The notes beneath the pieces are model-generated. The model saw only the letters and a list, made by a program, of their open reading frames with translations. It had not been told where the DNA came from and searched no databases. Made by a program: the position numbers and the translations under genes. Below, piece by piece: positions 11,920-27,665 of a stretch of DNA of 64,000 nucleotides. Positions within the stretch are counted from its first letter, which is position 1, and every line of letters begins with the position of its first letter. This DNA comes from Nitrospirota bacterium (GTDB lineage: Bacteria; Nitrospirota; Thermodesulfovibrionia; Thermodesulfovibrionales; UBA9159), in assembly GCA_021790195.1 (NCBI GenBank), contig JAJYIF010000009.1, forward strand, positions 1-64,000. The letters run 5' to 3'.

Positions 11920-12018
11920 TTCGACAAGCTCACCATGACAATCATACCCCTAAGCTTGCAAAAAGGTTATCCTTAGCATGCATATAAATATTGTCATCCC
12001 CGGGGCTTGTCGAAGGAT
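11920..12018. repeat. Inverted pair of GTCAT-tailed repeats
   Basis: The left copy ends ...GCTCACCATGAC (11920-11939). The right copy starts GTCATCCCCGGGG and contains CTTGTCGAAGG (11993-12018). Both share TTCGACAAG in inverted orientation. No gene lies between them. The right copy abuts the stop codon of the octahaem cytochrome. Confidence 0.6.
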
Positions 12019-13082
12019 CACTTCTTCTTTGTCGACTGCCCCTGCACGTCGGACGTTGGGATGCCATGATCTTTACCGTGGCAGGTAAGGATGCACGTGG
12101 GAGAACCCTTTACACCCGGTATGTATTGTCCGGGTCCTGTCACGATCTGGCGATCAAATTCTATGAGAGACGGATTGATCTGGCTTCCATGAGAGGCATG
12201 GCATGTGTGGCAGGAGGTCTTTACAAAGACTATGTGCTCCCTGTGTCCATAAGGCTGGGTTTGAGAGCCGACGAAACTCTCATTGCCGAGTATGCTTTCA
12301 CGTCTGTGGCAGCTGTAGCAAAGGTCATATGCATATTGCGACTCCGGCCCTTCAGTAGTGGTGTAATTCTTCTTCAGGAGGGGGGGATAATCGGAGCCGT
12401 GAGACTCATGGCAGTCCGTGCAGTCTATAGTTAAGCTGCCCTGCATGTCCTTGAAAAGACTGACGCTTCTTCTTCTTGCGGCCCTTTCTATAGGATGATA
12501 GGATTGGTTGTTCGGGTCGAAGAGCAATCTAATATTGGGAGAAGTTGCGGGCCTGTTTGCGCTGTCGCCATGGCATTTGTAACACACCTCCGAGGCCTTT
12601 GTAGCCACCTTTTTTTGTCCGTTTATCGAAACCCCTGTCACCTTGCCCATTTTGTTCTGATTGTCCAAAGAATGGGGATTATGACAATCATAACAAGCTA
12701 CATGCCTTGGCATTAAAGGGCTGGTTTCCGGAAGCGTCTCATTCCGTTCATGGTACAGCGACGTTTCCAGGATAGGATGGTGCGACCTTTTCTGCAGACT
12801 CGAATATATGTCGGATCCCTTGTCATCGGGGGTTTGCGGATATGGACCGTGGCAGATGAGGCAGAGCTTGTCCGGTGTCGCCCTCAGCATAGGCGTCTTC
12901 GGTTGGCCGTGAGCTACATGACACCCGGAACACCCTTTCGGGTTCTTCTGACGGTCCTCGTGGGTCCCCAGCGTTGTCTTATTTTGCCCACCCTGCGAGG
13001 CGGGCAGGACTATTGCCGTCATAACAGTTATAAGAGATACGATTACCGCGCCGAGCGCTAATAAAAAGAGTTTCGCTTTCAC
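12018..13082 (-). CDS. Octahaem c-type cytochrome (paired CXXCH)
   Basis: I start at the GTG at 13082 because GAGAGAAG precedes it and it lies just after the upstream stop; an upstream GTG at 13130 has no ribosome site. Protein of 354 aa with an N-terminal hydrophobic signal or anchor. Haem sites in order: CSGCH, CLICH, CYDCH, CYKCH, CTDCH, CYSCH, CHTCH and CILTCH, the last a CX3CH. This gives eight predicted haems. Part of the leftward NHL-cytochrome operon. A periplasmic or outer-membrane electron-conduit role is inferred. Lysine-rich C-terminus. Confidence 0.87.
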   Translation of the reverse strand: MKAKLFLLALGAVIVSLITVMTAIVLPASQGGQNKTTLGTHEDRQKNPKGCSGCHVAHGQPKTPMLRATPDKLCLICHGPYPQTPDDKGSDIYSSLQKRSHHPILETSLYHERNETLPETSPLMPRHVACYDCHNPHSLDNQNKMGKVTGVSINGQKKVATKASEVCYKCHGDSANRPATSPNIRLLFDPNNQSYHPIERAARRRSVSLFKDMQGSLTIDCTDCHESHGSDYPPLLKKNYTTTEGPESQYAYDLCYSCHRRESILGNESFVGSQTQPYGHREHIVFVKTSCHTCHASHGSQINPSLIEFDRQIVTGPGQYIPGVKGSPTCILTCHGKDHGIPTSDVQGQSTKKK

Positions 13083-13095
13083 AGTTCTTCTCTCA

Positions 13096-13983
13096 TCAGT
13101 ATGGGTACGAGCAGGTTGGGCAATCAACACCGGGAGTGCAGCTCGTCACATGGCACGCACTGCAAAGGGTATCATCACAGGCTTTCGCAACCCAAAAACA
13201 GGGAAGGTTGGGGGCTGACGGGTTAAAACAACTGCAATTGCCGTTTTCCGGGTGGTCATTGTGCGGGTCATGACAGGATGCGCATTGAACGCCGCCGAAC
13301 CCGCCCCTGATAGGCACGCCCGGATGACCGCCATAAGTCGCATTTGTCGGCTTTAAGAGAGGAAGAAGCGGCGGGATGTTCAGAGCGGTACCGTTGCCGC
13401 TGTTTTCTATATCAGTGTCCAAAGTGCAATTTATAGCAATAGAAACAGGGTGCATGCCTGAAATATCAGTGCCCAGATAGCCGCCATTCGTAGAGGGCAT
13501 AGTGGTAACTCCATTGGCCATTGTTATCTGCCCCGTGCTTCCGGGTCCGGGCGTATTTACCACTGCTCCAATGGCAACGGTGCCGTCATGACAGCTCAGA
13601 CATAGTGTTGAACCTTTATCGGGCTGTCCGACTGTCACATAACTGTCATAGGGAACAATATAGTTTGCCACTGCGCTCAGACTATGGTTCCACAGGGGAG
13701 TGTTGGAGGTGTCGCCGCTGAATTTCCCGATTGACCCGTGAGGAGTATGGCAGAACACGCATATCTCCGTAGTTCCCCCAGCCGCAGCTTTTATAGTTCC
13801 CGGACCGTTTACGGACAGGTTATGTCTTGTTGTTGCGACCCCGGCGTAAGCCCTGACCGCGTAATGGACGGCATAAGCCGCATAAAAAAGAAAGATCAGG
13901 ATGAAGACCAGGGCTAAGGTTGAGGTAACTGTGACACCCTTTGGCTGTCTTCCTCTTCTTCTCAGGCTAAACCTTGATCTCAA
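13096..13983 (-). CDS. Tetrahaem cytochrome, candidate filament-type
   Basis: Protein of 295 aa starting at a TTG behind GGAGAAAGG. A basic N-terminus and long hydrophobic segment (about 18-45) form the export signal or anchor. The mature part begins RHNLS and carries CVFCHTPHG, PLWNHS, CLSCHDG, CASCHDPH and CSACH: four haems. The same layout is seen in the cytochrome at 19560-20312. From memory, OmcE-like and related tetrahaem cytochromes share the CxFCHTPH...PLWN...CLxCHxG pattern; I could not align them. The C-terminus is cysteine-rich (CTPGVDCPTC). Confidence 0.85.
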   Translation of the reverse strand: MRSRFSLRRRGRQPKGVTVTSTLALVFILIFLFYAAYAVHYAVRAYAGVATTRHNLSVNGPGTIKAAAGGTTEICVFCHTPHGSIGKFSGDTSNTPLWNHSLSAVANYIVPYDSYVTVGQPDKGSTLCLSCHDGTVAIGAVVNTPGPGSTGQITMANGVTTMPSTNGGYLGTDISGMHPVSIAINCTLDTDIENSGNGTALNIPPLLPLLKPTNATYGGHPGVPIRGGFGGVQCASCHDPHNDHPENGNCSCFNPSAPNLPCFWVAKACDDTLCSACHVTSCTPGVDCPTCSYPY

Positions 13984-14017
13984 CTTGACCTTTCTCCTTA
14001 ATCTTTACCTTGACCTG
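13984..14017. repeat. 9-bp-period repeat (TTGACC family), left copy
   Basis: TTGACC units at 9-bp-like spacing begin beside the stop codon of the NHL lipoprotein and supply the ribosome site (GGAGAAAGG) of the tetrahaem cytochrome. An oppositely oriented copy lies in the 5' coding part of the NHL gene. Confidence 0.6.
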
Positions 14018-15136
14018 TTATTGTTCTTCTATCAATTGAAACGCCTGGACTCTCATATTGTAAGTATCGGCAACATAGATTACGTTGTTATGATTAATAA
14101 ATATACCATTTGGAAGGGTAAATTTTCCATAAGCTTTGCCCTCTTCGCCGAAGAAGAGGAGGAGTCTGCCGTCCTTGTTGAAAATCTTTATCATGCCCTG
14201 CTCCGAATCCACAACATAAATATTGCCGTGTGTGTCGGTCGCAACACCCTTCGGCCTTGCGAATTCGTTATATGATCCCCCTCTCGATCCGAACTTGAAG
14301 AGGAACTTGCCGCTTGTGTCGAACACCTCTATCCTTGCGTTCATAGTGTCGGAAACATAGAGTCTGCCATTGTTGTCCGCCCAGCAATAAGTCGGGAAAT
14401 TGAACTCTCCGTCTCCTTCTCCCCTTTTCCCGATGATAAATTTTTTATTGCCGTCTCTGTCCGCCGCAATAACATCGTGATTGTCCGTGTCGACGATGAA
14501 AAGGGTATCTGACTTTTCATCGTATGCGAGACCGACGGGCCTCATCCCCTCCCGTGAGATAGACTTGATGAAATTGCCCTGAGGGTCGTACTTAAATATC
14601 TTCTTGGCCGCAGAATCGGAAACATAGATATTCCCATCTCTGTCGGTCACAACACAGACGGGGTCCGCGAGAGACCCATCTCCGCTGGTCCCGACGTGAA
14701 AAAAGTCATTTGTCTTCAGGTTCACCACTGTTACCCGCTGAGCGCCGGAATCCGCAATGTAAAGGTCGTCGCCCCTTTGGTAAACATACATGGGCTTTAG
14801 GAGAATGGGTGCTTCCCTGGCTTCGAAGAATTCGTACTTCCCGGTCAACACATCGAGCACTGAAGAGCCCTCGGGAAGCAAAGAGGTGAAGCTCCAGAGG
14901 TACCGTATCCTCGGCTTCTCGGGCGGTCCGGGCCAGATTATCTTGTTCTCCATCGAAGTGTCGAAATGCGCCCTCTGCTCGGTGGCGCAGCCGACCATAA
15001 TCAGCAGGGCAGCAAGGGTAAACAGTTTAAGCAGGTCAACAACCGAGAGGGCAAAAAGTTTAACAAGATCAATAAAGAAAACTTTAAGGAGTTCAGATAG
15101 GTCAAAAAGGCAAGAAACTTTACGAAACAATTTCAT
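14018..15136 (-). CDS. NHL-repeat beta-propeller lipoprotein
   Basis: Protein of 372 aa, lipobox LIMVGC near residue 50. The mature part opens with WPGPPEKPRI, also found as WPLPPDKPRI in the second NHL lipoprotein (25096-26199), then about six NHL blades (LYIADSGAQRVTVV; IYVSDSAAKKIFKY; LYVSDTMNARIEVF; IYVVDSEQGMIKIF). Start: ATG with AAGGAAG upstream. The unusually long N-terminus (LSELLKVFFIDLVKLF...) is encoded by the 9-bp TTGACC-family repeat. Likely an outer- or inner-membrane lipoprotein in the periplasm or on the surface, assisting cytochrome assembly or contact; this role is inferred from neighbours. Confidence 0.87.
   Translation of the reverse strand: MKLFRKVSCLFDLSELLKVFFIDLVKLFALSVVDLLKLFTLAALLIMVGCATEQRAHFDTSMENKIIWPGPPEKPRIRYLWSFTSLLPEGSSVLDVLTGKYEFFEAREAPILLKPMYVYQRGDDLYIADSGAQRVTVVNLKTNDFFHVGTSGDGSLADPVCVVTDRDGNIYVSDSAAKKIFKYDPQGNFIKSISREGMRPVGLAYDEKSDTLFIVDTDNHDVIAADRDGNKKFIIGKRGEGDGEFNFPTYCWADNNGRLYVSDTMNARIEVFDTSGKFLFKFGSRGGSYNEFARPKGVATDTHGNIYVVDSEQGMIKIFNKDGRLLLFFGEEGKAYGKFTLPNGIFINHNNVIYVADTYNMRVQAFQLIEEQ
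14990..15125. repeat. 9-bp-period repeat encoding a signal peptide
   Basis: On the minus strand, units like TTGACCTGC, TTAAACTGT and TTGATCTTG, TTAAACTTT recur. They are translated in frame as the hydrophobic signal of the NHL lipoprotein. Orientation is opposite to the copy at 13984-14017. Confidence 0.65.
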
Positions 15137-15160
15137 TTAAATTTACTTCCTTTTAATTTT

Positions 15161-15184
15161 GTCATTCCGGCTTGTCCGGAATCC
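15161..15184. repeat. GTCAT hairpin, type 2
   Basis: GTCATTCCGG-CTTG-TCCGGAATCC: a 7-bp stem with GTCAT tail. Its minus strand supplies the last codons (IPDKPE) and TGA stop of the GIY-YIG remnant at 15162-15300, as the copy at 26231 does for the intact gene. Confidence 0.8.
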
Positions 15185-15300
15185 TTCTGACGATGTCGCA
15201 GTATAAGTCCTGCATTGAAGAAATAGTCTTTCTGATAAGCTCCAGTTTACTGCGCCTGCTCATATTCTTTAGCTGTTTCTTCAGGCCTTCCACTGGAACA
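15162..15300 (-). pseudogene. Remnant of a second GIY-YIG gene (C-terminal part)
   Basis: About 42 codons (KKQLKNMSRRSKLELIRK..., ending DIVRRIPDKPE) align with the C-terminus of the GIY-YIG protein at 26232-26549 ([18 protein letters not shown]..., ending [11 protein letters not shown]). The catalytic N-terminal half is absent. It lies directly against the bracketed GIY-YIG element at 15318-15704. Confidence 0.7.
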
Positions 15301-15317
15301 AGCACATCCCCTTTTTC

Positions 15318-15344
15318 GTCATTCCCGCGAAGGCGGGAATCCAG
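15318..15344. repeat. Terminal inverted repeat, GTCAT hairpin type 1 (left)
   Basis: A 27-bp copy: GTC, an 8-bp stem ATTCCCGC-GAAG-GCGGGAAT, and CCAG. It is the exact reverse complement of 15678-15704. Its minus strand gives the last codons (GFPPSRE) and the TGA stop of the GIY-YIG gene. Confidence 0.9.
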
Positions 15345-15641
15345 TCCTCTCCAGCAAATCATCATACAAATCTTTCCATTCAGGATTACTCTCCTCTATG
15401 GGCCGCAATTTCCAGCACCTCTCCCATTTCTTTATCTGCTTCTCTCTCAGTATCGCCGCCTCAGCAGAGGCGTGAATCTCATACCATACCATACCAGACT
15501 ATGCACACTATATTTCTTTGTGAACCCGTCAACGAGATTGTTCTTGTGCTCATATATTCGCTTGATCAAGTCCGAAGTCACGCCGATATAGAGAGTTCCA
15601 TTCTGTCTGCTGCATAGCATATAAACACAAAAGGATTTCAT
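15319..15641 (-). pseudogene. GIY-YIG nuclease gene with 5-bp slippage frameshift
   Basis: The ATG at 15641 is preceded by AGAGGC. VYMLCSRQNGTLYIGVTSDLIKRIYEHK is interrupted here as motifs VYML and LYIGV, then R and YEHKNN: the GIY-YIG core. At 15481-15495 the unit ATACC is present three times. Removing one unit joins HSLVWYE to ...AAILREKQIKKWER... and gives 105 codons, the same as the intact gene at 26232-26549. As it stands the frame breaks. It may be a dead gene or one switched by slippage. Small stand-alone GIY-YIG proteins are DNA endonucleases of unclear role. Confidence 0.8.
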
Positions 15642-15677
15642 GCCTCTACACCGTTCTCGTCTTCTCAAGGGTACTGC

Positions 15678-15704
15678 CTGGATTCCCGCCTTCGCGGGAA
15701 TGAC
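15678..15704. repeat. Terminal inverted repeat, GTCAT hairpin type 1 (right)
   Basis: Exact 27-bp inverted copy of 15318-15344, lying 36 bp upstream of the GIY-YIG start. Together the two bracket a 387-bp unit. Confidence 0.9.
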
Positions 15705-15784
15705 ACCTAAAAATGCTCTACTAATGGTCTTATTAGTGTCTGCCTTTCGTTATTCAAAGATATTATTCTACGAGGTGAATTGAC

Positions 15785-16786
15785 CTACTTAACCTCATTG
15801 ACCTTGTTATCATATGTTATTATCTTCGCCTTTTCCCGGAGGCCCTTTATAAGCTCTTCATAGAGCTGCGTTCTCTTTTTGTTTAAGAGTTCTTTTTCCA
15901 GCCCTGGCTTGACCTCGTCAAAGGACATCTGCCGCTCGGGTTCGCGGCCGTCGAATTTCACTATCATTATGCCCCTTGAGATAGTGATCATTTTGACTTC
16001 GCCTTCCTTCATGCTCCAGACTTCCTTTTCAAGGTCTTCCTCGAGCCTTCCCTTGTGCAGATAACCCATGTCTCCGCACTTCTCCCGCAATGCGTCGTCC
16101 GAGTATTCCTTCGCCAGCTTGCAGAAATCTCCTCCGGCCTTGACCTTGCTTAAAACCTCTGCGGCTTTGTCCATTTTCTCCTTTCCGACCTTGTCGGTTG
16201 CGTCAGGGGCTATGTAGACGAATATCTCATTAAACTTTATCTTTTCGGGCTCGACAAAACGTTTCTTGTTTGCTTCATAATAATCTTTCACTTCCGAATC
16301 AGTGGGTTTGGAAACTTGATCGACCTTCGTCTTCATCAGTTTGTCGATGGACAGCCCTTCCCGGATCTCTTTTTCGTAAGATGCCTCGGTGAGACCTCTC
16401 TGTTTAAGGGCGTCTTCGAAATCCGACTTCGATTTGAAATGCGACTTCTGCCCGTCGAATATCTTCCTGACATCAGCGTCCGTGGCCGACATCCCAAGCC
16501 TCACCGCCTCCTGGTAGAGCAATTCCGAAACGATAAGCCGATCGATCGCCTCTTTCCTGTACTGGTCCTTTTTCTCTTGCGCAAGGTCGGGATGAAACGA
16601 AAGGGAGGGGATCATCTGGTCGATCATGGCATCCACATCCGCCTCTGTAATGGCGACTCCGTTCACCGAGGCAGCGGGTTTGGAGTCCTCTGCGAAGACA
16701 TCAGGCGTGTAGCGTGTAACGTATAGCGTGCAGAGAAGAAAGGCAAACAAAGCAGCGTGCAGCGTATAGCAAGTAGTGATTTTCAT
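15785..16786 (-). CDS. PpiC/SurA-type peptidyl-prolyl isomerase
   Basis: Protein of 333 aa, periplasmic foldase. SurA-like N-terminal helical domain (about 38-175, VNGVAITEADVDAMIDQM) and one parvulin domain (about 178-285, with CKLAKEYSDD, GDMGYLHKGRL, GIMIVKFDG). Start overlaps the stop of the four-helix-bundle gene by 4 bp, so translation is coupled. The signal peptide (residues 1-32, containing CYTLHAALFAFLLCTLYV) is encoded by the GCGTATA-type 7-bp repeat. PpiC proteins often sit with exported multihaem cytochromes, for example at Geobacter omcZ (recalled, not checked). Confidence 0.9.
   Translation of the reverse strand: MKITTCYTLHAALFAFLLCTLYVTRYTPDVFAEDSKPAASVNGVAITEADVDAMIDQMIPSLSFHPDLAQEKKDQYRKEAIDRLIVSELLYQEAVRLGMSATDADVRKIFDGQKSHFKSKSDFEDALKQRGLTEASYEKEIREGLSIDKLMKTKVDQVSKPTDSEVKDYYEANKKRFVEPEKIKFNEIFVYIAPDATDKVGKEKMDKAAEVLSKVKAGGDFCKLAKEYSDDALREKCGDMGYLHKGRLEEDLEKEVWSMKEGEVKMITISRGIMIVKFDGREPERQMSFDEVKPGLEKELLNKKRTQLYEELIKGLREKAKIITYDNKVNEVK
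16704..16778. repeat. 7-bp-period repeat (GCGTGTA family), in frame in the PpiC signal peptide
   Basis: Units GCGTGTA, GCGTGTA, ACGTATA, GCGTGCA, then AGCGTGCAGCGTATAGC. Positions 16756-16770 (CGTGCAGCGTATAGC) match 17147-17161 exactly in inverted orientation, so the two copies bracket the four-helix-bundle gene. Confidence 0.8.
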
Positions 16787-17139
16787 GTCCTCATTCTCCT
16801 GATTACTGTTGCCAGTAGTTTTGAGGTTTCTTCCTGAAGAGAATACAATCTCTGAAAGTCTTCTGACTTCAGATAACCAAGATCTTTTGATGAAGATATC
16901 TGTGTTTCGAATTCGGAACAGGGGCCGAAGGCGATTCTCAAATATTGCAAGTACTCATTCCGACTTCTTCTATATCCCTCAGCAATATTTGAAGGAATAG
17001 ACACAGCACACCTTCTCAATTGAGAAACTAATCCAAACTTTTCTGTTCCGGGGAATGCATCTGTAGCTCTATAGATTTCAAGGGCCAATTTGTACGCTTT
17101 CTGATAAACGATCAAATCTTTATACGAATTCGTCTTCAT
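16783..17139 (-). CDS. Four-helix-bundle protein (S23 / 23S rRNA-IVP / Avd-like)
   Basis: Protein of 118 aa. Motifs SYKDLIVYQKAYKLALEIY, RRCAVSIPSNIAEGYRR and LRIAFGPCSEFET are typical of the TIGR02436/PF05635 four-helix bundle family, which includes proteins encoded in 23S rRNA intervening sequences and Avd of diversity-generating retroelements. I chose the ATG at 17139; a GTG at 17160 would extend it into the repeat. Stop overlaps the PpiC start. Flanked by inverted 7-bp-period repeats. Function unknown; nucleic-acid binding is inferred from Avd. Confidence 0.85.
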   Translation of the reverse strand: MKTNSYKDLIVYQKAYKLALEIYRATDAFPGTEKFGLVSQLRRCAVSIPSNIAEGYRRSRNEYLQYLRIAFGPCSEFETQISSSKDLGYLKSEDFQRLYSLQEETSKLLATVIRRMRT

Positions 17140-17146
17140 ATTATAC

Positions 17147-17212
17147 GCTATACGCTGCACGTCTCTCGTGTCGCAGCATACACGCTACTCGCTAAACGCT
17201 ACGCGCTCAACG
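17147..17212. repeat. 7-bp-period repeat (GCGTGTA family), inverted copy
   Basis: Plus strand reads TATACGC, TGCACG, then CACGCTACTCGCTAAACGCT: the reverse orientation of the copy at 16704-16778. It fills the gap between barrel gene and four-helix-bundle gene. Confidence 0.8.
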
Positions 17213-17215
17213 GTG

Positions 17216-19129
17216 TCACAGCAATCTGAACGGTCTTGTCACCCGCAGGGTTATCCTCCTGTCGGTTATCCTCGGGCTGTTAGTGGCATCGGTCACCGTA
17301 TACCTGCCGTCTGCCGTGATTATAAGTCTTCTCCAGAACCAGGTAATGAAGGGGTTTACATTCCACGATTCAGTCGTGGTCTTTGTCCCGTAAAAGATAT
17401 TTTTAGAATCGTTCTTGGTATAAACCGAGCTCAAAGTGAAGGAACTGTTTCTGAAAAAGAACGGCCCGCTTATCGTGTTAAAGAAACTGTAGCCCGTCGC
17501 TTCGGTTGCGCCGAGGTCGGACGTATCGCGGTTCTTGTCCCGCGTCAAGTCCGAGCCTAATACCACGTTTAATTGCCAGATGCGCGTCGAAGCGGTTGTA
17601 TACCACTTATCGCTTTCGGTCTTCGGGGACCACGAAACAAAGATATTGCTCGAGAGATTTATCCGGTTGTAATAGCTCACGCCTGCCTCGGCAGTCTGCA
17701 AAGGTCCCTTGTCCGGCAGTGCCGAGTTGTCCGCATTCTGTGTCATCGCGCCCTGAATGGAATAAGCCGCGTAAAGGAAAAGCCTTGGCAAGGGCGTGTA
17801 ATTGGCCCGTATTCCGAAGCTGTAACCACTTCCGTTTGTTCCACCCGTCAGGGAAGAGGAAGTGCCGAGCGACACCTTTGTCGAGAGCGGCGTATTCGTG
17901 CCGAGGACTGCTATTCCGTATCCGTTTTCGAAAGCTGTCGAGTTCTCGGTCCGGTTGTAGCCCGCGGTGAAGCGGTAGTTCAGGAACGTCTTGCGCCAGA
18001 TGGAGGAGCTTCCCGTGCTTGCCGACACGCCGTAATCCGTGGAGGTGCCGTTGTCGGTTGTTGCTCTATAGCCGGCAGATGCGCTGTAATCCCATGTGCT
18101 TGCCCGCGAGAGGAAACCGTGGACCGCTGAGGATAGCCCGTAGGCCGAGGTTGCGCCGCACTTGTTGAAGAAGGCGTCGTTGTCCAGGCTCATTATGCTC
18201 CACCTGTTCCATCCCGTGTGCGTGGAGAGGTCCGAAAATAAGGAGTTCGTGGAATCTGAATCCGACTTCTGGTATACGTCCGAGACAGAAAGGGTATAGT
18301 TGGTCTTCCCGTAGTCGCCGCGCGCGGCAAACCGCGTGCTGTATGAGGTCGTATTACTGTCTCCTGTGTTTGCAGTATAGGCGTCGAAATCAAGGTTGAA
18401 GATCTTAGGCAGGAAATAATACAGGAACCCTTTTTCGTATTTCTTCAGCTCCGCCTTCATGGCCGCCTCGTTGGCCGCCGCGCTCTGGGACGTGTTGCCC
18501 TGTCCTCCCGTATTTTCTTCGCTATTCGATTGTTGCTGCTGCTGCTGCGGCTGTTGTTGTCTTTGCTGCCGCTGTTGCTTAATGAACTCTTTGACTGCGC
18601 TTTCAGGGACAACGCTCCTCGTGTAAACAACGCTGAATCCCACGGTCTTTAAATCATAGCCGGGGCCGTCCGAATAGGAGGCCCTCAGAGACCCGTTGAG
18701 CGGTCTAAAGGGAAGAAACATGAGGTTAAGGTTTACGCTCTTGTAGTCTCCCGTCAAAGACGCTGTGCCGTCCGACCGTTCATAGTCCACCCCAACGTTA
18801 TACTGCAGGAGCCTCCTGTCCACAATGAAGCCCGCTGCGTTGAGGTTGAGATGCTCGGTGAACTGATATGTGTGGCTGGAGATGTCGCCTATCTTGGTAT
18901 AAAAGTCGTCGTATCTCCCGTCCACGAAGCCTGTGATCATCAGCCTCGGCATGAACATGAGCCTGTCCCTGTCCGTCATTGCGCCGGCGTGGACACTGGA
19001 GACGAAGAGGAAGACAAGAAGCACGGCAAGAAGCGTTTCCGAAAGCGCTCTCAGCAAAATAAAGAACGGACTGCGGAAGCGCCCGGACACAGCGAACGGT
19101 GCGCGATAGTCAGTTTTTGTTTTCCTCAT
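17216..19129 (-). CDS. Outer-membrane beta-barrel protein (candidate electron-conduit porin)
   Basis: Protein of 637 aa. A basic N-terminus and hydrophobic segment (about 22-48, ending VHA-GA) form the signal peptide. Then come many alternating amphipathic strands with aromatic girdles (for example LNLNAAGFIVDRRLLQYNVG; YSFGIRANYTPLPRLFLYAAY) and a C-terminus RVTRPFRLL. A Gln-rich linker (about 183-205) divides N-terminal and main barrel parts. No haem motif. Its place upstream of PpiC, NHL lipoprotein and cytochromes fits a porin-cytochrome complex; no MtrB similarity could be proven by eye. It could also be a sugar-export or TIGR03016-like barrel. Sigma70-like promoter at 19279-19308. Confidence 0.82.
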   Translation of the reverse strand: MRKTKTDYRAPFAVSGRFRSPFFILLRALSETLLAVLLVFLFVSSVHAGAMTDRDRLMFMPRLMITGFVDGRYDDFYTKIGDISSHTYQFTEHLNLNAAGFIVDRRLLQYNVGVDYERSDGTASLTGDYKSVNLNLMFLPFRPLNGSLRASYSDGPGYDLKTVGFSVVYTRSVVPESAVKEFIKQQRQQRQQQPQQQQQQSNSEENTGGQGNTSQSAAANEAAMKAELKKYEKGFLYYFLPKIFNLDFDAYTANTGDSNTTSYSTRFAARGDYGKTNYTLSVSDVYQKSDSDSTNSLFSDLSTHTGWNRWSIMSLDNDAFFNKCGATSAYGLSSAVHGFLSRASTWDYSASAGYRATTDNGTSTDYGVSASTGSSSIWRKTFLNYRFTAGYNRTENSTAFENGYGIAVLGTNTPLSTKVSLGTSSSLTGGTNGSGYSFGIRANYTPLPRLFLYAAYSIQGAMTQNADNSALPDKGPLQTAEAGVSYYNRINLSSNIFVSWSPKTESDKWYTTASTRIWQLNVVLGSDLTRDKNRDTSDLGATEATGYSFFNTISGPFFFRNSSFTLSSVYTKNDSKNIFYGTKTTTESWNVNPFITWFWRRLIITADGRYTVTDATNSPRITDRRITLRVTRPFRLL

Positions 19130-19278
19130 TATCCATCTGGTAAAAGGGCCTTGAAACAGCAGGGAATCCTTCGCAAGCGAGTGCTTTGTTGTTGATCTGA
19201 CGCTATATCCGTGCCCCTGTGATTATTCCTCTTTGACCCAAGAATATTCTTAAACCCCTTCCGAAAGAAAATCTCATA

Positions 19279-19308
19279 ATTATAATTAACAAACAGTGGA
19301 ATTCGCAA
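19279..19308 (-). promoter_or_regulatory. Sigma70 promoter of the barrel-PpiC-cytochrome block
   Basis: Minus strand TTGCGA (19303-19308), 18 bp, TATAAT (19279-19284). The -10 is perfect. Start near 19271 leaves a 140-nt leader before the ATG at 19129. Confidence 0.65.
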
Positions 19309-19353
19309 GTATTTTCTTAGGACTTAAGCAATATTTATACCATGGCACAAGGA

Positions 19354-19432
19354 AAGGTCAAACAGTTCAAGAAGGGCAAATGGGTTAAGCAGTTCGAAAA
19401 GGTCATTTTCAGACTTGGAACTATTTGACCTT
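19354..19432. repeat. Inverted 9-bp-period repeat (GGTCAA family)
   Basis: Left arm AAGGTCAAACAGTTCAAG (19354-19371) pairs with right arm CTTGGAACTATTTGACCTT (19414-19432), differing at two points. Further GGTTAAG/GTTC units extend both arms to about 19462. Left-arm units repeat every 9 bp. Confidence 0.7.
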
Positions 19433-19510
19433 GAAACTTCTTAACCTTTTCATATCGCCCGGGGCTTATTCAGTGAGGATTCTGTTACTCTGCGGTGAGC
19501 CTGAAGTCCT

Positions 19511-19549
19511 GAAAAAAAAGAAGGGAGGAAAATCCCCCCTTCTTTTTTG
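19511..19549 (-). terminator. Rho-independent terminator of the tetrahaem cytochrome gene
   Basis: On the minus strand, AAGAAGGGGGGA pairs with TCCTCCCTTCTT (one G-U pair) and is followed by a run of T. It lies 10 bp past the stop codon of 19560-20312. A strong terminator plus strong ribosome site suggests high expression. Confidence 0.85.
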
Positions 19550-19559
19550 TGTTGATGTA

Positions 19560-20312
19560 CTACCTGTTCACATGACAATCCTGGCACAACTCTGAAGCCG
19601 TGTTGGTCGTTCTCAGGAAGTAAACCTGATTACCGCCGCCGATGTGATTTGTAGTGGCCGTGCTCCATCCGTTGTGGTCGTAAGTTGAGTCTGTGTCGTG
19701 GACCGAATGGCATGTTGCGCACTCAAACTTGTTTGCGCCGGTGCCATAGAGCTTGTACTTGCCTCCTGCGCCGGAATTGGTCTGACCCGGTATCCATCCG
19801 TTGACCGCAGTCGGGAACCCGTTGTTGTCCGTAACGGCGTCCAACGCCGGGTTATAAGTGAAGCCGATTGGATGGTCGTTAGAGAGGTCGGTCCCCAGGT
19901 TGGCCCAGTTAGAATAAACCGGATTTCCGTAGTTGGACATTGTGAAGTTTGCGTAGAGGGCACTTGGCACAGAGCCCGGACCCGGATAGTTCACAAGACC
20001 GCTCACCTGACCGTTATGGCATACAAGACAGCCGAGGGAGCCGATGCTTGGCTGGCCCACTGTTGCCGACATATCAAAGGTTGCTGAAGAGTACGTAATA
20101 TATGTGGCAGTGCTTGACGAACGGTTCCAGAGTGGAGCGTGCGTTGCTGAGTCTGAGCTCGATGAGTGAGGCGTATGGCAGAATGCGCATATCTCACCGG
20201 CTGTGCCACCGCTTCTCAGATCGTGGGGCGAACCGGAAACCTTTGCCATAACGACCGCTGCTCCCGCGCATACCATCGCGAGGGCAAGCAATACAATAAG
20301 TGTCTTCTTCAT
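19560..20312 (-). CDS. Tetrahaem secreted cytochrome, monocistronic, candidate filament subunit
   Basis: Protein of 250 aa. Signal peptide about 1-23 (VMA-K). The mature protein begins near HDLRSGG and carries CAFCHTPHS, PLWNRS, CLVCHNG, CATCHSVH and CQDCH: four haems. Histidines outside CXXCH, such as HDL, TPH, DHPIGF and SVHD, are candidate axial ligands. Close paralogue in layout to 13096-13983. It has its own TTGACT-18-TAATAT promoter, an AAAGGAGGTG ribosome site and a strong terminator, all signs of an abundant product. Tetrahaem cytochromes of this general pattern include polymerising nanowire proteins (OmcE; recalled, not aligned), so a filament role is a hypothesis. Confidence 0.87.
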   Translation of the reverse strand: MKKTLIVLLALAMVCAGAAVVMAKVSGSPHDLRSGGTAGEICAFCHTPHSSSSDSATHAPLWNRSSSTATYITYSSATFDMSATVGQPSIGSLGCLVCHNGQVSGLVNYPGPGSVPSALYANFTMSNYGNPVYSNWANLGTDLSNDHPIGFTYNPALDAVTDNNGFPTAVNGWIPGQTNSGAGGKYKLYGTGANKFECATCHSVHDTDSTYDHNGWSTATTNHIGGGNQVYFLRTTNTASELCQDCHVNR

Positions 20313-20364
20313 ATTTCTTTTTCACCTCCTTTCCTTTTGATTAACCTTCACTAAACCGATACGT

Positions 20365-20394
20365 ATATTAATGAAAGGTTTCCCTTAAAGTCAA
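20365..20394 (-). promoter_or_regulatory. Sigma70 promoter of the tetrahaem cytochrome
   Basis: Minus strand TTGACT (20389-20394), 18 bp, TATAAT-like TAATAT (20365-20370). The leader carries AAAGGAGGTG about 8 nt before the ATG at 20312. Confidence 0.7.
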
Positions 20395-20455
20395 TATTAA
20401 AATGGAATCTGCAAAGTGATAATTAGTAATGCAAACAATATGCCATTTTTCTGTT

Positions 20456-20630
20456 CGGAATCCAGAATCCAGGAGTCGGGAGTCAGAAGTCGGCGGGCTA
20501 CTGTATGAGAAATGGATCGAGAGAGAGTCACACTCTTCTTTGCGCCCTTTGCGGCTTTGCGAGAGAAAGGAAGTATTTTTTTATCTTGTCTTTTACGTTC
20601 TCTGTGTCTCTGTGGTTAAATTATCTTTTT
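20456..20630. repeat. Solo copies of CAGGAGT- and CTCTGTG-type repeats
   Basis: 20463-20500 shows CAGGAGT, CGGGAGT, CAGAAGT at 7-bp spacing. 20545-20570 shows CTTTGCGCC, CTTTGCGG, CTTTGCG. 20600-20625 shows TCTCTGTG twice, then GTTAAA. The same families bracket small genes elsewhere in this window. Confidence 0.65.
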
Positions 20631-20737
20631 GCCAGGCAAGGGCGGCTGATCTAAACAGGCATTAAATTTTCTTAATGAACAACTTTATAAATTGGGTGAC
20701 TTGGCGCAATATTGGGCGGAAAGGCGCATCGGAAGAA

Positions 20738-20791
20738 AGTAGACGGCATATAGTAGGCAGCATGTAGTAGATAGTAGATAGTAAGTCTCTA
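20738..20791. repeat. 7-bp-period repeat (AGTAGAT family)
   Basis: Units like GTAGTAGATAGTAGATAGTA recur. Related pieces lie at 22538-22590 and 22735-22757, and inverted at about 33610-33650. Confidence 0.6.
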
Positions 20792-20845
20792 TTACCGCTT
20801 GTTCGCTCCTTGCGAAAGTCTTCCCAAGGGGAGTATATTTTAGAG

Positions 20846-22537
20846 ATGCCGGATAATGACGGGACCTTTCGGCCGGGAATATCCAAACAAGCGCTTCTTG
20901 GATATGCTGCCGTCTTCGTCTCATTCCTTATAATCTTTGCCGTGCCCCTGTGGGACATAGATCTGTGGTGGCACCTTGCGACCGGGAGATACATAGTCGA
21001 GCATAGGTCCCTGCTTGCTGCCGACCCGTTTTCATATACGTCGGGCCATGACTCTTCCTTGCGTGCGATCATACTCAACGGCTACTGGCTGTCCCAGGTA
21101 ATTCTGTATCAGGCCCATAGTGTTTTCGGCAATTACGGCATAATAGCCTTTAGGGTCCTGGTCCTGATTTCGATTCTTTTCATGGTCCTCCGCATAGGCC
21201 GCAGGCTCGGGGCCGAAGACCCAGCCTTAATCATTGTTCTTGTGATGACAGGTTTTGTTTCTCGCCGTTTTACCGGCGAAAGGCCGCAGTTGTTTTCTTT
21301 TCTGCTTGCGCCGGTAGTTTTCTATTTATTGAACGACCTGAAGGAAGCGTATAGCGCACAGCGTATAGCGAGTAGTGAACAACAAGAAGAAGCGTATAGC
21401 GTGAAGCGTGTAGCGAGTATGGGACAACAGAAAGAAGCGAGTGGCGTGCAGCATAATACGCCCTACACGCTACACCCTAGTCGTTTGTCTCATAATGTTA
21501 CACGCTGCCCGCTACCCCCTGCACGCTATTTTCTATTGCCTTTGACGATGCTCTTATGGGCGAACCTCCACCGGGGGTTCATGATGGGCACGGCGCTGAT
21601 CGCTCTTTTCGGAGTATCGGAGACAGTCAGACTTTATCTTAAGAGAGGGATCGACAAGCCATTTCTTAAAGGGTGCCTTATAATGGCGGTCGCAATTTCC
21701 GCGTCTTTCATTAACCCGAACACATATAAACCGTATTTGGAACTTATTGTATTCCAGGCCAGCGCCCTGCAGCAAAGGACCAGCGAGTATCTTTCACCGG
21801 TAACGCTCATGTTGCACCGGCAATATCTGGTTTCATATTGGCTGTATCTAACCGCGAGCGCTATTGTCTTCGGTCTGTCATCCAGAAGAATGGACAAGAC
21901 CAATCTCCTAATCTTTGTCTTCCTGGCGGCCCTGAGTCTTTCCGCATTCAGGTACATCCCTTTTTTCGTGTTCGTTACGGCGCCGTATGTTGCGCTTTAT
22001 CTTTCGGATATTCTTAAGATACCCCTCCCCCCCAATGGGCGAGGGGAGAAGAAGGGAACTCTCTACTTTGCACGTCCGATCAGCGTTCTTGCGGCCTTGC
22101 TTGTCATAGCGACTTTCATGTTCATGCTCAAGAGCTTCGACTCAACTCTCGGGAGCGCCCTCAGACACCCCACCATGGCCCGCCGGTTCCCGGAAAAAGC
22201 AGCGTCCTTTATTGAAGAACATCATCTTCCAGGCAGGATCTTCAATCATTTCAACTGGGGAGGGTATCTCATATGGAGACTGTATCCGGAGCGCAGGGTC
22301 TTCATAGACGGCAGGGCCCTCAGCTTGAAGGCATTTTCCGATTACACAGAGATACTTTGGGACAAGGACAAATGGAAGGCCCTTCTCGGTTATTATGGGG
22401 TAAGGGTAATTGTCATGCCGAGGTCGAACCCTCTTACGGGCGAATTATACGAACTGATAAACCGCCTTTACGAAGACCCGGACTGGGCATTGGTTTACAG
22501 CGACGACACAGCGATGGTCTTTCTCAACAGACAGTAG
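20846..22537 (+). CDS. GT-C-like membrane protein with in-frame repeat insertion
   Basis: The ATG at 20846 (upstream AAGGGGAG) is preferred over a TTG at 20810. Protein of 563 aa with about ten membrane segments. First-loop signature DIDLWWHLATGRYIVEH and C-terminal signature FNWGGYLIWRLYPERRVFIDGRALS define a family with 22769, 29221 and 33637. The acidic D-x-D in the first loop suits a GT-C polyprenyl-sugar transferase; acceptor unknown. After FYLLNDLKEA a stretch of about 58 residues with three tandem EAYSxxR(I/V)AS units is encoded by the GCGTATA repeat (21345-21530) and sits in a loop before YFLLPL. A second palindrome encodes IPLPPNGRGEK. Confidence 0.8.
   Translation: MPDNDGTFRPGISKQALLGYAAVFVSFLIIFAVPLWDIDLWWHLATGRYIVEHRSLLAADPFSYTSGHDSSLRAIILNGYWLSQVILYQAHSVFGNYGIIAFRVLVLISILFMVLRIGRRLGAEDPALIIVLVMTGFVSRRFTGERPQLFSFLLAPVVFYLLNDLKEAYSAQRIASSEQQEEAYSVKRVASMGQQKEASGVQHNTPYTLHPSRLSHNVTRCPLPPARYFLLPLTMLLWANLHRGFMMGTALIALFGVSETVRLYLKRGIDKPFLKGCLIMAVAISASFINPNTYKPYLELIVFQASALQQRTSEYLSPVTLMLHRQYLVSYWLYLTASAIVFGLSSRRMDKTNLLIFVFLAALSLSAFRYIPFFVFVTAPYVALYLSDILKIPLPPNGRGEKKGTLYFARPISVLAALLVIATFMFMLKSFDSTLGSALRHPTMARRFPEKAASFIEEHHLPGRIFNHFNWGGYLIWRLYPERRVFIDGRALSLKAFSDYTEILWDKDKWKALLGYYGVRVIVMPRSNPLTGELYELINRLYEDPDWALVYSDDTAMVFLNRQ
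21345..21530. repeat. In-frame 7-bp-period palindromic element
   Basis: Left arms carry GCGTATA, GCGCACA, GCGTATA, GCGAGTA three times over; the right arms read TACACGC/TACACCC and GCACGCTATT. Length keeps the frame. Confidence 0.8.
22022..22047. repeat. In-frame CCCCTC/GAGGGG palindrome
   Basis: CCCCTC and GAGGGG flank a short centre; translated as PLPPNGRGE in a loop of the GT-C protein. Confidence 0.5.
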
Positions 22538-22708
22538 GTTGCAGTAGTAGACACCAACAACGCTAGTAGTAAGCATGTAGTAAACAGTAGAAAGAGTGTT
22601 ATATATCCTTGCATAATGAAAGCGTCATTGCGAGGAGAGGAACAACATGGCAATCTTAATATTGCTTCGCAATAAAACGCGGGATTGCTTCGCTTCGCTC
22701 GCAATGAC
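22538..22708. repeat. AGTAGAT-type repeat plus inverted GTCATTGCGAG hairpin pair
   Basis: Just past the GT-C stop lie AGTAG units (22538-22590). Then GTCATTGCGAGGAG (from 22624) and, inverted, CGCTCGCAATGAC (to 22708). An ATTGCTTCGCAAT hairpin lies between. No gene. Confidence 0.7.
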
Positions 22709-22768
22709 ATGCAGTCTTATTTACGCACGGCCATATAGTAGACAATAGATAGTGTGCCTACTTTTTTT

Positions 22769-24667
22769 CTACGGCAGACCCATGTCCTTGTGAAGGATGT
22801 CCTTCCCATTTTTGATCAACTCAAGCGCCTTTTCCACCGGTCCTCCTTTCAGGGAAGGTCTCTTCTTCAAGGCGTCTTTGAGAAACTCTATTGCATCGTC
22901 CCGCCTGCCGAGGCCGAGCTCGGACCTTGCCACCGTGAGATAGGGACGAGGGTTGTCCGTGCCTAGCATGGTGTAAGCGCTTGCCATCGCAGCGGCATAG
23001 GAAAGAACCTTGGGAAAATCAGGCTCGAAATTCTCTCTCGTGAACAAAAGGCAATTCTTTGCATAGAAGATCAACTTCCATTCAGGGTCATCGACGAGAA
23101 TAGGCAACAGAGGAGCCATGCCGCCTTCGCGAGCAATCCCGGGTATAAGGATGTACTTCACCGAATAGGTGTCGAGTATGGCTTTATAGGCCGGAACGTC
23201 CACAATTTTCTCCCTGTCGCCTGATATCACAGCTAAGTATTGAAGAAATCCCTTCTGTGAAAGAGCCCTGCCGTCCATGAACACGACCTGATCGGGATAG
23301 AACCTCCATATGAGATAACCGCCCCAGTCATAATAGTTGAACAATCTGTCATTCAGATTCCGGCTCTTAATAAATCTGACTGCGGCTTCTGGAAAATAAT
23401 CTTCAATTATCGGTTTTTTAAATATTGTCATTGGATATATTGTCCAAGCTCCGAAAAGGATAACGCTAACGACAAGAATATCGGGAACCATGAATTTCGA
23501 AAGTTTAAGGAAGATGTGGTCGGCCTTCCCCGAGAAAATGCCCCCGATAATAGGAGTAGCTGCTATGGCCAGAAGAGGTATGACCCTTATGGCTGTGAAG
23601 GACAGAATACCAAAAAGGGCAATAACGAGGACCTCTTCGCTATGACTAAAGAGGATGGCGCGCAGTGTGCAGCGCGTTTCCATCCCGACTTCGGGCTCCT
23701 GGCCCCTGGCCCCACACCCCCGCCTTTTGTATTCAAGAATAACGTGCGCCGTTACCGAAAAGGCCGCAGCGGCAAGGTACAAGAGCGTCCATGTAACAAA
23801 ACGATACGTACCGACCGCGATATATGCAAAAGGCGTCATGAGCTCCGCTACGGATGCACTTTGGATGGGCGACGCTTCCTTTATTATGCCGTATATAACG
23901 TTGTAACCGTTCGGATTCAGAAGACCGGCAAAGATCGTGACCAATGAGACAATGAGCAGCCGTTTATTTATTAAACGACCACGGACGAGAAGCTTCCTTA
24001 ACAGCTCAGAAAAGACATAGATTACAGCGATCGCAGTCCCGACTATGAAGCCGCCGTGCATATTCGCCCAGAAAAGCATCAATAAAGGCAAAAGAAAATA
24101 GCGGGTAGCGTGTAGCGGATAGCGTGTATTAGCTTGCCCCGTGTCCGTTTTTTCATCACTGCACGTTACCCGCTGTACGCTGCCCGCTTCTTTAAGATCT
24201 TCAATCAAATACAGAAACGCCGCAACGAAAAAGAAGGTCATCTGGTTCGGTCTGTCGCCCTTGAACTGTAACAGGATATAGGTCAGAGGGAGGAGCAGGG
24301 GGAGCGACGTGATGACGCTCAATCTTTTCCTCCTGAGGTGCAGAAAAACCATGAGCAGCGTGAGGAAGGCGAAAAAAAGCCTTATCACTATTATCCCACG
24401 ATAACCTGCCAGATTAAAGGCGCCATATTGAATGAGGTTTGCAACCCAGTACTGCCTCGGTATTATTTTAGCCATGAAAGAATCTTCATACGCCTTGACG
24501 GAAGTGGTGTAGTTAAATAGATCGCGGTCGGGGAGTTGGTGATGTTCCCATATCCACCTCCCGGTCGCGAGATGCCAGAAGAGGTCCGGGTCGGTGATCT
24601 GAGTCAAATGGGCAAAAAGCACAACGGCAAAGAAGAGGACGAGCAGTATACGGGATTTTAGCTTCAT
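22769..24667 (-). CDS. GT-C-like membrane protein with TPR-like tail and in-frame repeat
   Basis: Protein of 632 aa. DPDLFWHLATGRWIWEH and FNYYDWGGYLIWRFYPDQVVFMDGRALS, given here as the motifs FWHLATGRW and WGGYLIWRFYP, place it with 20846 and 29221. About ten membrane segments; the C-terminus (about 560-630) has one or two TPR-like units (LGLGRRDDAIEFLKDALKKR). After YLIEDLKEA the repeat at 24092-24190 encodes GSVQRVTCS...TRYPLHATR. A second loop (about 325-345, RGCGARGQEPEVGMETR) also looks repeat-derived (TGGCCCC units near 23695). Presumed polyprenyl-sugar transferase in the inner membrane. Confidence 0.78.
   Translation of the reverse strand: MKLKSRILLVLFFAVVLFAHLTQITDPDLFWHLATGRWIWEHHQLPDRDLFNYTTSVKAYEDSFMAKIIPRQYWVANLIQYGAFNLAGYRGIIVIRLFFAFLTLLMVFLHLRRKRLSVITSLPLLLPLTYILLQFKGDRPNQMTFFFVAAFLYLIEDLKEAGSVQRVTCSDEKTDTGQANTRYPLHATRYFLLPLLMLFWANMHGGFIVGTAIAVIYVFSELLRKLLVRGRLINKRLLIVSLVTIFAGLLNPNGYNVIYGIIKEASPIQSASVAELMTPFAYIAVGTYRFVTWTLLYLAAAAFSVTAHVILEYKRRGCGARGQEPEVGMETRCTLRAILFSHSEEVLVIALFGILSFTAIRVIPLLAIAATPIIGGIFSGKADHIFLKLSKFMVPDILVVSVILFGAWTIYPMTIFKKPIIEDYFPEAAVRFIKSRNLNDRLFNYYDWGGYLIWRFYPDQVVFMDGRALSQKGFLQYLAVISGDREKIVDVPAYKAILDTYSVKYILIPGIAREGGMAPLLPILVDDPEWKLIFYAKNCLLFTRENFEPDFPKVLSYAAAMASAYTMLGTDNPRPYLTVARSELGLGRRDDAIEFLKDALKKRPSLKGGPVEKALELIKNGKDILHKDMGLP
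24092..24190. repeat. In-frame 7-bp-period palindromic element
   Basis: Plus strand GCGGGTA, GCGTGTA, GCGGATA, GCGTGTA, then the inverted arm CACGTTACCCGCTGTACGC. Same protein position as in the two paralogues. Confidence 0.8.
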
Positions 24668-24683
24668 AGACAGAACCCAGAAG

Positions 24684-25070
24684 TCAGGAGCCAGAATTCA
24701 GAATGGAAGAGCAGTATGATTCGAGCAATTTGCTGACTTCCTCAAGCTGGGGTATAGACTCCAGACGGTTTGCGTAACCCAAATCTTTCGCGAGAATCAA
24801 ATAGTAACGGCACTCCTCAATTGAACCTTGAGCGATATTCATGAAGCGGGCCTTGTCCGGTCTGGTCTTCTTTTTGAATCCCTCCGCTATGTTGGCCGGA
24901 ATTGAGACAGCAGACCGTCTGAGCTGTGACGTTAATCCGTATATCTCGTTCTTCGGAAAGCCATCAGTAAAATGATAAACAGACAAAACGAACTGATGAG
25001 CTTTTTGCCACACGATAAGATCCTGGAAAGTTCTCGCCGGTATTCTTTTCACGATATCCCCTCTGTTCAC
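24684..25070 (-). CDS. Four-helix-bundle protein (S23 / Avd-like), second copy
   Basis: Protein of 128 aa from a GTG at 25070; a GTG seven codons in (VKRIPARTF) is an alternative. RTFQDLIVWQKAHQFVLSVY, RRSAVSIPANIAEGFKK and IAQGSIEECRYYL match the same family as 16783-17139. The final codons (ILNSGS) and stop are supplied by the CAGGAGT-type repeat. Flanked on both sides by inverted copies of that repeat. Lies between a GT-C gene and an NHL lipoprotein, but there is no reason to link it to them functionally. Confidence 0.85.
   Translation of the reverse strand: MNRGDIVKRIPARTFQDLIVWQKAHQFVLSVYHFTDGFPKNEIYGLTSQLRRSAVSIPANIAEGFKKKTRPDKARFMNIAQGSIEECRYYLILAKDLGYANRLESIPQLEEVSKLLESYCSSILNSGS
24690..24706. 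repeat. 7-bp-period repeat (CAGGAGT family), left copy
   Basis: CAGAAGT, CAGGAGC, CAGAATT, CAGAATG at 7-bp spacing around 24678-24705. The core CAGGAGCCAGAATTCAG matches 25073-25089 inverted with one mismatch. Confidence 0.75.
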
Positions 25071-25072
25071 TC

Positions 25073-25089
25073 CTGAATTCTGACTCCTG
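25073..25089. repeat. 7-bp-period repeat (CAGGAGT family), inverted right copy
   Basis: Plus strand CTGAATTCTGACTCCTG. It stands just upstream of the four-helix-bundle start. More units at 25140-25178 encode the tail of the neighbouring NHL lipoprotein. Confidence 0.75.
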
Positions 25090-25095
25090 TATTCA

Positions 25096-26199
25096 TTATT
25101 TCTTGCTTTTGCCTTCTTGTTTCTGACTGCCGACTTGTTTCTCTTCTGAATTCTGACTCCTGACTCCTGTATTCTCTTCTTTCAGGTACTGGAACACCTG
25201 GACCCGTTTATTCAGAGAGTCGGCAACGTATATCTTATCGTTTTTGTCTATCCACATCTGCATTGGCAATAGAAAAAGACCGGGACCGCTGCCGTTGCTG
25301 CCGAATACCATCAGCAGCCGGCCTTTCTGGTCGAATATCTGAACGTTGCCGAAATTGCCGTCGGACACATAGATATGCCCTTCGGAATCAACCGCAATCC
25401 CGTATGGTCTTGAAAAAAAGCCCGGCGAGTCGCCGAGGCCGCCGAACGCCCTGATAAAGAAGCCATCAGGGCCGAATATCTTTACCTTGAAGTTCATTGT
25501 GTCCGCAACATACACCTTGCCTTCTCTGTCGACATAGACCTGTCCGGGGATATAAACCTCATTGTCCTTGTTCCCTGACTTTGCTATAGTCGATATGAAA
25601 TTGCCGTTCATGTCGAATGCCCGGAGCTCGCTTAGTTTGGAATCTGTGACGTAAATCCTTCCTCTGTCCTCGTCGACTGCCACTCCCACAGGGTTCCTGA
25701 AAAACCCCGGCTTCTGGCCTATAACAAACCGGATCTTCCCTGTATTAAGGTCATATGCGGTCACCCTTTTTGAAGCGATGGAGGCATAAAGGAGCAGGTT
25801 GGACTTCGGGGCTATTGCTATCCCCATGGGCTGGGCCGGCGGCTCTTCGGCCCCCTCGCCGAAAAACCCGAGCCTCTTGTGCGTCAAATCGAATACAAAG
25901 ATCTGGTTGCGTATTGTGTCGGCGACATAGATATTGCCCATTCCGTCCACGGCAACTCCCTGCGGCCTCACCAGGCTTTGTCCTACATCGACTCCCACAA
26001 GAGATTCCAGAAAGGGATTTCGTTCCGCGATATCTATCGCAGCGGAATAGGCCCCGAGCCATTTTATCCTCGGCTTGTCCGGCGGCAGGGGCCAGACAAG
26101 GTCCTTCGGCGCCTCAGCCTGCTGCGGCGCACACGCAGAGAGCAGCGCAATGCATATGGAAAAACATATTAAAGCAGCAATTCTCAATTTACGGTTCAT
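25096..26199 (-). CDS. NHL-repeat beta-propeller lipoprotein, second copy
   Basis: Protein of 367 aa. Lipobox LLSAC (about residues 18-22), then WPLPPDKPRIKWL, shared with 14018-15136, and about six NHL blades (IYVADTIRNQIFVF; IYVTDSKLSELRAF; VYVADTMNFKVKIF; IYVSDGNFGNVQIF). ATG preceded by GGAGGATG. The C-terminal 25 residues (TGVRSQNSEEK...) are encoded by CAGGAGT-type repeats and probably form a disordered tail. It stands near a heptahaem cytochrome, repeating the NHL-cytochrome association seen twice already. Confidence 0.87.
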   Translation of the reverse strand: MNRKLRIAALICFSICIALLSACAPQQAEAPKDLVWPLPPDKPRIKWLGAYSAAIDIAERNPFLESLVGVDVGQSLVRPQGVAVDGMGNIYVADTIRNQIFVFDLTHKRLGFFGEGAEEPPAQPMGIAIAPKSNLLLYASIASKRVTAYDLNTGKIRFVIGQKPGFFRNPVGVAVDEDRGRIYVTDSKLSELRAFDMNGNFISTIAKSGNKDNEVYIPGQVYVDREGKVYVADTMNFKVKIFGPDGFFIRAFGGLGDSPGFFSRPYGIAVDSEGHIYVSDGNFGNVQIFDQKGRLLMVFGSNGSGPGLFLLPMQMWIDKNDKIYVADSLNKRVQVFQYLKEENTGVRSQNSEEKQVGSQKQEGKSKK

Positions 26200-26230
26200 A
26201 TATCATCCTCCGCTTCAGTTTATTGTTTCT

Positions 26231-26254
26231 GTCATTCCGGCTTGTCCGGAATCT
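26231..26254. repeat. GTCAT hairpin type 2, left bracket of GIY-YIG gene
   Basis: GTCATTCCGG-CTTG-TCCGGAATCT. The minus strand encodes IPDKPE plus TGA at the end of the GIY-YIG protein. Confidence 0.85.
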
Positions 26255-26549: not shown

Positions 26550-26602
26550 CAAAGCCAACCGCTCCATGCCGCATTGGCCCGACCAAGACATATTCTCAAG
26601 AA

Positions 26603-26626
26603 GGATTCCGAACAAGTCGGAATGAC
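26603..26626. repeat. GTCAT hairpin type 2, right bracket (inverted)
   Basis: GGATTCCGA-ACAAG-TCGGAATGAC. Compared with the inverted left copy it differs at two positions, G to A and C to T, which pair with each other in the stem, so the hairpin is preserved. Confidence 0.85.
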
Positions 26627-26683
26627 AAGAATGATTTGGCTGCCTCCGTGTCTCAGTGGTTGACAGTCTTTCTTAAATCGCAT

Positions 26684-27557: not shown

Positions 27558-27648
27558 GACTACTTATGTACAGACCATTATGGGAACATTAATAACTTTT
27601 TGCACTTGGACCTCTTCGACCCGTCGAAAGAGGAATATTTCTTGCATA

Positions 27649-27657: not shown

Positions 27658-27665
27658 TACGTGTT

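Follow-up and report, generated by a model that had tools for sequence, protein, structure and literature searches.

A probable mobile hairpin element with heptad-repeat arms around a PF05635 (S23) gene in an ordinary operon of a Nitrospirota bacterium

The window analysed here is a 64,000-nucleotide stretch of a Nitrospirota contig. It contains a gene of the S23 / 23S_rRNA_IVP family (gene 1) between inverted repeat arms, and gene and arms together probably form a hairpin element of ~510 bp, of the type known as intervening sequences (IVS) of rRNA, which sits in an ordinary operon and moves with the assistance of a ring of S23 protein. A broader reading, which we regard as evenly balanced, is that S23 genes mark out a class of hairpin elements that is widespread in chromosomes across bacterial phyla and in one archaeal lineage, with the 23S-rRNA IVS as a special case. 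Each arm in that class would carry five AG at 7- or 8-nt spacing, one per subunit of a pentamer, and the ring would act in trans on gene-less derivatives. We know of no function for the common PF05635 family, whose pentamer was reportedly solved in 2006. A five-repeat site that is constant around almost every member would thus be the first concrete candidate ligand. The element and its neighbour comprise the following features (window positions):

16783–17139, minus strand: S23 / 23S_rRNA_IVP gene 1 (PF05635, TIGR02436), from open reading frame, profile search and fold model
16704–16736, plus strand: outer array of the left arm, GGCGTGTAGCGTGTAACGTATAGCGTGCAG, whose dinucleotides, spaced at 7–8 nt, are four AG and one AA, from the sequence; tandem repeat of period 7
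16754–16776, plus strand: inner array of the left arm, with four AG spaced at 7 nt; it includes the 15-mer CGTGCAGCGTATAGC
17142–17161, minus strand: inner array of the right arm, in which the left 15-mer recurs as its exact reverse complement
17182–17212, minus strand: outer array of the right arm, with four AG spaced at 7 nt and one degenerate unit
15785–16786, minus strand: SurA/PPIase-like gene, from open reading frame and profile search; its orthologue at locus L207 is without S23

Gene 1 is a member of the S23 / 23S_rRNA_IVP family by profile and by predicted fold. Its product is 118 aa long counted from the ATG, and an in-frame GTG would lengthen the gene to 17160. In a profile search the protein passed the cut-offs of PF05635 (E 2.2e-35; 121.5 bits, cut-off 33.8) and of TIGR02436, 'four helix bundle protein' (E 5e-33; 113.6 bits, cut-off 24). 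AlphaFold2 predicted a four-helix bundle (pLDDT 95.7), and structure comparison placed the model nearest to 2GSC (TM 0.90), with 2RLD also among the closest and with matches to Avd of diversity-generating retroelements (DGRs; 4DWL and DGR RNP structures). The Avd and bAvd profile models scored below their cut-offs (22.5 bits against 80 and 20.6 against 40, respectively). No HUH/Y1 transposase domain was found in the protein, PF05635 and the weak bAvd match being the sole profile matches, and S23 carries no recognised nuclease. PADLOC gave no match and a defence function was therefore set aside.

The earlier note had claimed that CGTGCAGCGTATAGC lies exact and inverted around this gene, and this was confirmed: the 15-mer is exact at 16756–16770 (plus) and 17147–17161 (minus). 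With at most two mismatches it has 8 matches in the window, a number not reached in any of 100 shuffles, from which 0.07 would be expected. Moreover, the repeat arrays go beyond the 15-mer on both sides, spanning 16704–16776 and 17142–17212. The transcript is predicted to fold into a single long stem, formed by the two arms and closed by a loop that contains the S23 frame (z −4.67). The TGA of gene 1 overlaps the ATG of the SurA/PPIase-like gene that follows (ATGA), and the left arm supplies the coding sequence for the signal peptide of the latter (MKITTCYTLHAALFAFLLCTLYVTRYTPDVFAED). No rRNA was found in window positions 12000–31000, around gene 1.

A second S23 element and several arrays without S23 lie in the same window:

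24684–25052, minus strand: S23 gene 2, second such element, with another heptad (CAGAAGT type)
24672–24701, plus strand: gene 2 left arm, exactly five AG at 7-nt spacing (AGAACCCAGAAGTCAGGAGCCAGAATTCAG)
25146–25175, minus strand: gene 2 right arm, again exactly five AG at 7-nt spacing; predicted to pair with the left arm
21344–21480, no strand assigned: solo GCGTATA arrays, without S23, in a membrane-protein-like open reading frame; five-AG array at 21346
24099–24187, no strand assigned: solo inverted hairpin of GCGTATA type, without S23
29721–29802, no strand assigned: solo inverted hairpin of GCGTATA type; five-AG array at 29721–29750

The gene 2 transcript is likewise predicted to form an arm–arm stem with the S23 frame in the loop (z −3.26); the arms of gene 1, with runs of four exact AG each, are more degenerate than those of gene 2. 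Genome-wide there are five PF05635 matches, four of them strong, and each of the four strong genes lies between inverted short tandem repeats, of a different sequence in each case: GCGTATA, CAGAAGT, GTCGGCA and the 8-mer GGTGACCC. The fifth, weak match (L005) has no such flanking repeats. GCGTATA was rejected as a common motif, each locus having its own heptad. The solo arrays at 21344–21480 and 29721–29802 lie inside or at open reading frames, and the frame at 21344–21480 is open, apparently since CAG/AAG variants replace those units that would put TAG in frame. The GCGTRYA double-repeat sites of this genome (G000) are concentrated, 13 out of 25, on the single 128-kb contig C24, so that the heptad type is clustered locally, as if spreading to nearby sites.

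The generality of the inverted flanks was assessed by scoring the 200 bp on the left against the reverse-complemented 200 bp on the right at 71 S23 loci in the phylum. The mean score was 34.1, against 17.8 for partners exchanged among loci and 23.8 for the direct orientation; scores of at least 34 were reached at 37/71 loci and by 2% of swapped pairs, and 64/71 loci exceeded at least 95% of their dinucleotide shuffles. ParE-toxin genes, small accessory genes that served as the control, averaged 17.0 with no high scores (0/24). A further 79 S23 loci were sampled across phyla from one-genome-per-species data, including Bacteroidota, Patescibacteria, Planctomycetota, Acidobacteriota, Pseudomonadota, Bacillota, Chloroflexota, Gemmatimonadota, Elusimicrobia and Methanophagales archaea among others; here the scores were 37.5 against 16.7, with p ≤0.02 at 72/79 loci. 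A scan of 21 other S23 loci for rRNA found none. The earlier note had named as its refuter that other PF05635 genes lack a 7-bp-period flank, which did not hold, given the flanks at 64/71 and 72/79 loci. Its linking of the family to inverted 7-bp repeats is thus correct and applies very generally, but the link is not tied to GCGTGTA, the heptad being specific to the locus. A minority of arms are direct rather than inverted (L035, L037), have a period of 6, 8 or 9, or are without AG.

GIY-YIG genes were unsuitable as a negative control because they have direct repeats of their own. Direct-repeat flanks are frequent at these genes in the same genomes (L144–L173; 11/21 high scores), which resembles the S23 case but is a separate association of small gene and repeats. 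The window contains two GIY-YIG genes near S23 genes, at 15447–15668 and 26316–26531, and a palindromic repeat of a separate family (GGATTCCCGCCTTCGCGGGAATGAC, 15679–15706) adjoins a GIY-YIG gene.

Pooling of the arms gave an autocorrelation of ~0.5–0.6 at 7, 14 and 21 and of ~0.25–0.3 otherwise, a minority at 8 excepted, and, on the inward-reading strand, a heptad profile of NNNNNAG (A 0.75, G 0.92). An alignment-independent count was made, per arm, of AG dinucleotides following one another every 7 nt. Five was the commonest number in both data sets (five in 30 arms, four in 20 and six in 7; five in 39, four in 12 and six in 8), whilst shuffled arms gave counts near zero. The mode was also five in arrays with 8-nt spacing (20 vs 7 and 7) and in solo arrays distant from S23 genes (48 vs 28 and 11). 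S23 loci agree in period, inward AG, a copy number of five and inversion. Where both arms have five AG, the N positions are alike across the array and show no register-specific match between the arms; register-specific base pairing was not found, and strict base pairing is therefore not conserved. Plain terminators or recombination by-products, that is, ordinary slippage-born hairpins around a small gene, might be suspected from the low complexity of the 7-mers and from stems near gene ends, but they fit poorly with the uniformity across phyla, the phase of AG on the inward strand and the sharp mode at five in place of a falling length distribution, and we consider this origin very improbable. 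A fixed five, rather than the falling distribution expected from slippage, suggests a reader with five sites. Both solved family members, 2GSC and 2RLD, comprise five chains, and a paper cited in PMC3936711 describes XCC0516 as having a quaternary structure of five four-helix bundles. We infer that the five repeats correspond to five S23 subunits, one repeat each.

Comparison of loci, at which gene names were read from translated frames and partly from general knowledge of the families, shows that S23 elements move, from occupied and empty sites, a copy at an unrelated place and an inverted copy. In two genera (L047/L052), S23 occupies reciprocal sites 0.5 kb apart, with a gene-less hairpin opposite in the other genome, and the heptad is common to both sites within a genome, not to orthologous sites. 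Genes cas1 and cas2 are neighbours at L032, and at L048 the element lies precisely between them. Loci L076 and L088 share flanks and outer arms, between which the gene is inverted in one relative to the other. Within one genus, the elements after purN (L064) and after nadB (L098) are 94% identical over 440 bp from arm to arm, in unrelated flanks. An empty site for gene 1 was found in genome G004, where the order of outer-membrane-protein-like gene, PPIase and NHL-repeat gene is kept and 46 bp without S23 separate the first two; PPIase and NHL are 38% and 44% identical to those of the window and the first gene is weakly similar. A near-identical S23 pair in G020 was unusable as evidence for the borders, its similarity passing the arms into CRISPR-linked sequence.

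S23 elements were also observed in or beside CRISPR arrays (L204 of G005, 3234–4230; L202 and L203 of G020). Both S23 copies at L204 come after a CRISPR repeat, truncated in each case at the same base, and the two near-identical copies of G020 lie beside CRISPR repeats at unrelated places. Loci L068 (G120) and L075 (G046), from different families, are 97–98% identical in the S23 region and 90% in the left flank, which would reflect either recent transfer or mis-binning.

The main rival explanation is an RNA-regulatory cassette, in which S23 would be a regulator that binds RNA in the manner of the trp RNA-binding attenuation protein (TRAP), its leader array autoregulatory, the solo arrays at operon junctions its regulon, and any spread secondary. 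Arrays do lie at gene junctions, the stop codon of gene 1 overlapping the next start codon; the solos too obey the five-copy rule, and the arms form stable predicted stems. However, both the heptad sequence and the presence of S23 turn over at orthologous sites, orthologous operons occur without arrays, and the solos of genome G160 are near-identical dispersed copies. We therefore consider a regulator with a solo-array regulon unlikely.

Lastly, five-unit YAG arrays were counted in 295 genomes of the phylum. The 167 genomes with S23 averaged 24.6 arrays and the 128 without averaged 1.45, a ~17-fold difference, and at least 10 arrays were present in 66/167 and 5/128, respectively. Array load follows S23 copy number (Spearman 0.61), also under within-family permutation (p 2e-4). 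In one family, G160, with four S23 genes, has 235 arrays and eight S23-less relatives have none. Exceptions are the S23-less genomes G001, G221 and G273, which have arrays, and several S23 genomes without arrays of the searched type. The control pattern, read backwards, correlates with S23 too, and the correlation therefore concerns 7-periodic arrays in general, not AG alone. The suggestion in the earlier note of a role for the gene in spreading the repeat is plausible and is better supported by the array load, as far as correlation and comparative sequence go.

Most arrays are gene-less. Genome G160 contains a dispersed hairpin family of 130–160 bp (L306–L335) with defined ends, CTAAAAACAGC and GCTGTTTTTAG, five AG heptads in the left arm of 25/27 copies and more than 200 array hits genome-wide; target-site duplication (TSD) at these hairpins gave p about 0.05, with none convincing. 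It is conceivable that S23 is a passive hitch-hiker, inserting into or captured by hairpins that another agent (a host RT, a Y1 transposase or replication slippage) spreads. Such a history would account for solo hairpins at orthologous sites and for the G160 hairpins having their own CTAAAAACAGC..GCTGTTTTTAG ends, unlike the S23 copy L073. It is nevertheless doubtful, since ParE toxin genes, accessory as they are, lack such flanks, the exact five-copy rule fits the S23 pentamer, and array load follows S23 within families.

Under the preferred reading of an S23-assisted mobile hairpin, the paired arms would form a hairpin whose loop contains the S23 gene, each arm reading AG-N5-AG-N5-AG-N5-AG-N5-AG on the strand towards the gene, slightly degenerate at gene 1 and exact at gene 2. 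The S23 homopentamer may bind the array as a single strand around the ring, one AG per subunit as in TRAP, the five-AG array of the 5′ arm being bound in competition with its pairing to the 3′ arm. RNA is the likelier ligand than DNA because of the fold kinship with Avd, an RNP component. The bound form would serve the spread of the element and, in trans, that of gene-less hairpins with the same arrays, whilst arm pairing and cutting of the stem in the transcript by RNase III may allow the host to tolerate the insertion.

The closest known system is the 23S rRNA IVS of Coxiella, Leptospira and others. That of Coxiella is 428 nt long; its terminal stem measures 28 bp, its loop contains an S23p frame, it is cut by RNase III, and upstream of the frame it has tandem heptamers GACAGAT in varying number (PMC4990558). 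Like the elements described here, these IVS are about 0.4–0.5 kb long and have terminal inverted repeats that form a stem with an S23 ORF in the loop; the build being the same, rRNA IVS and chromosomal elements appear to belong to a single kind. Unlike the IVS, for which location in rRNA is defining, the elements of the window lie in protein operons, and the chromosomal elements are genome-wide and multi-copy, with gene-less derivatives and locus-specific heptads under the five-AG rule. Such genes have been seen in rRNA insertions of CPR bacteria (PMC11270868), and 18 were seen, unexplained, in cas loci (PMC3936711). S23 hairpin elements would explain the occurrence of S23 genes in rRNA, cas operons and CRISPR arrays. 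A search of open-licence PMC papers turned up no account of heptad-armed S23 elements outside rRNA. Avd of DGRs shares the fold and pentamer class of S23, with weak sub-cut-off profile matches, but no RT or template/variable repeat was found beside gene 1, and the only RVT_1 match of the genome is on contig C23, the window being on C24. REP/RAYT and MITE systems resemble the S23 elements in having inverted hairpins that flank a protein gene and many gene-less copies per genome; they differ in that S23 is without a Y1 or other transposase domain, the heptad arms are locus-specific and there is no clear TSD. TRAP is a ring of 11 subunits that binds one NAG-type repeat per subunit at short spacing. 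One repeat per ring subunit is also proposed here for S23; the fold, the 11-mer ring and the short spacing of TRAP are unlike S23. The cyanobacterial STRR heptanucleotide repeats are 7-bp degenerate tandem repeats, as are the units of the S23 arms. In many genomes, S23 elements may be the source of a large fraction of the degenerate 7-bp repeats that have seemed puzzling.
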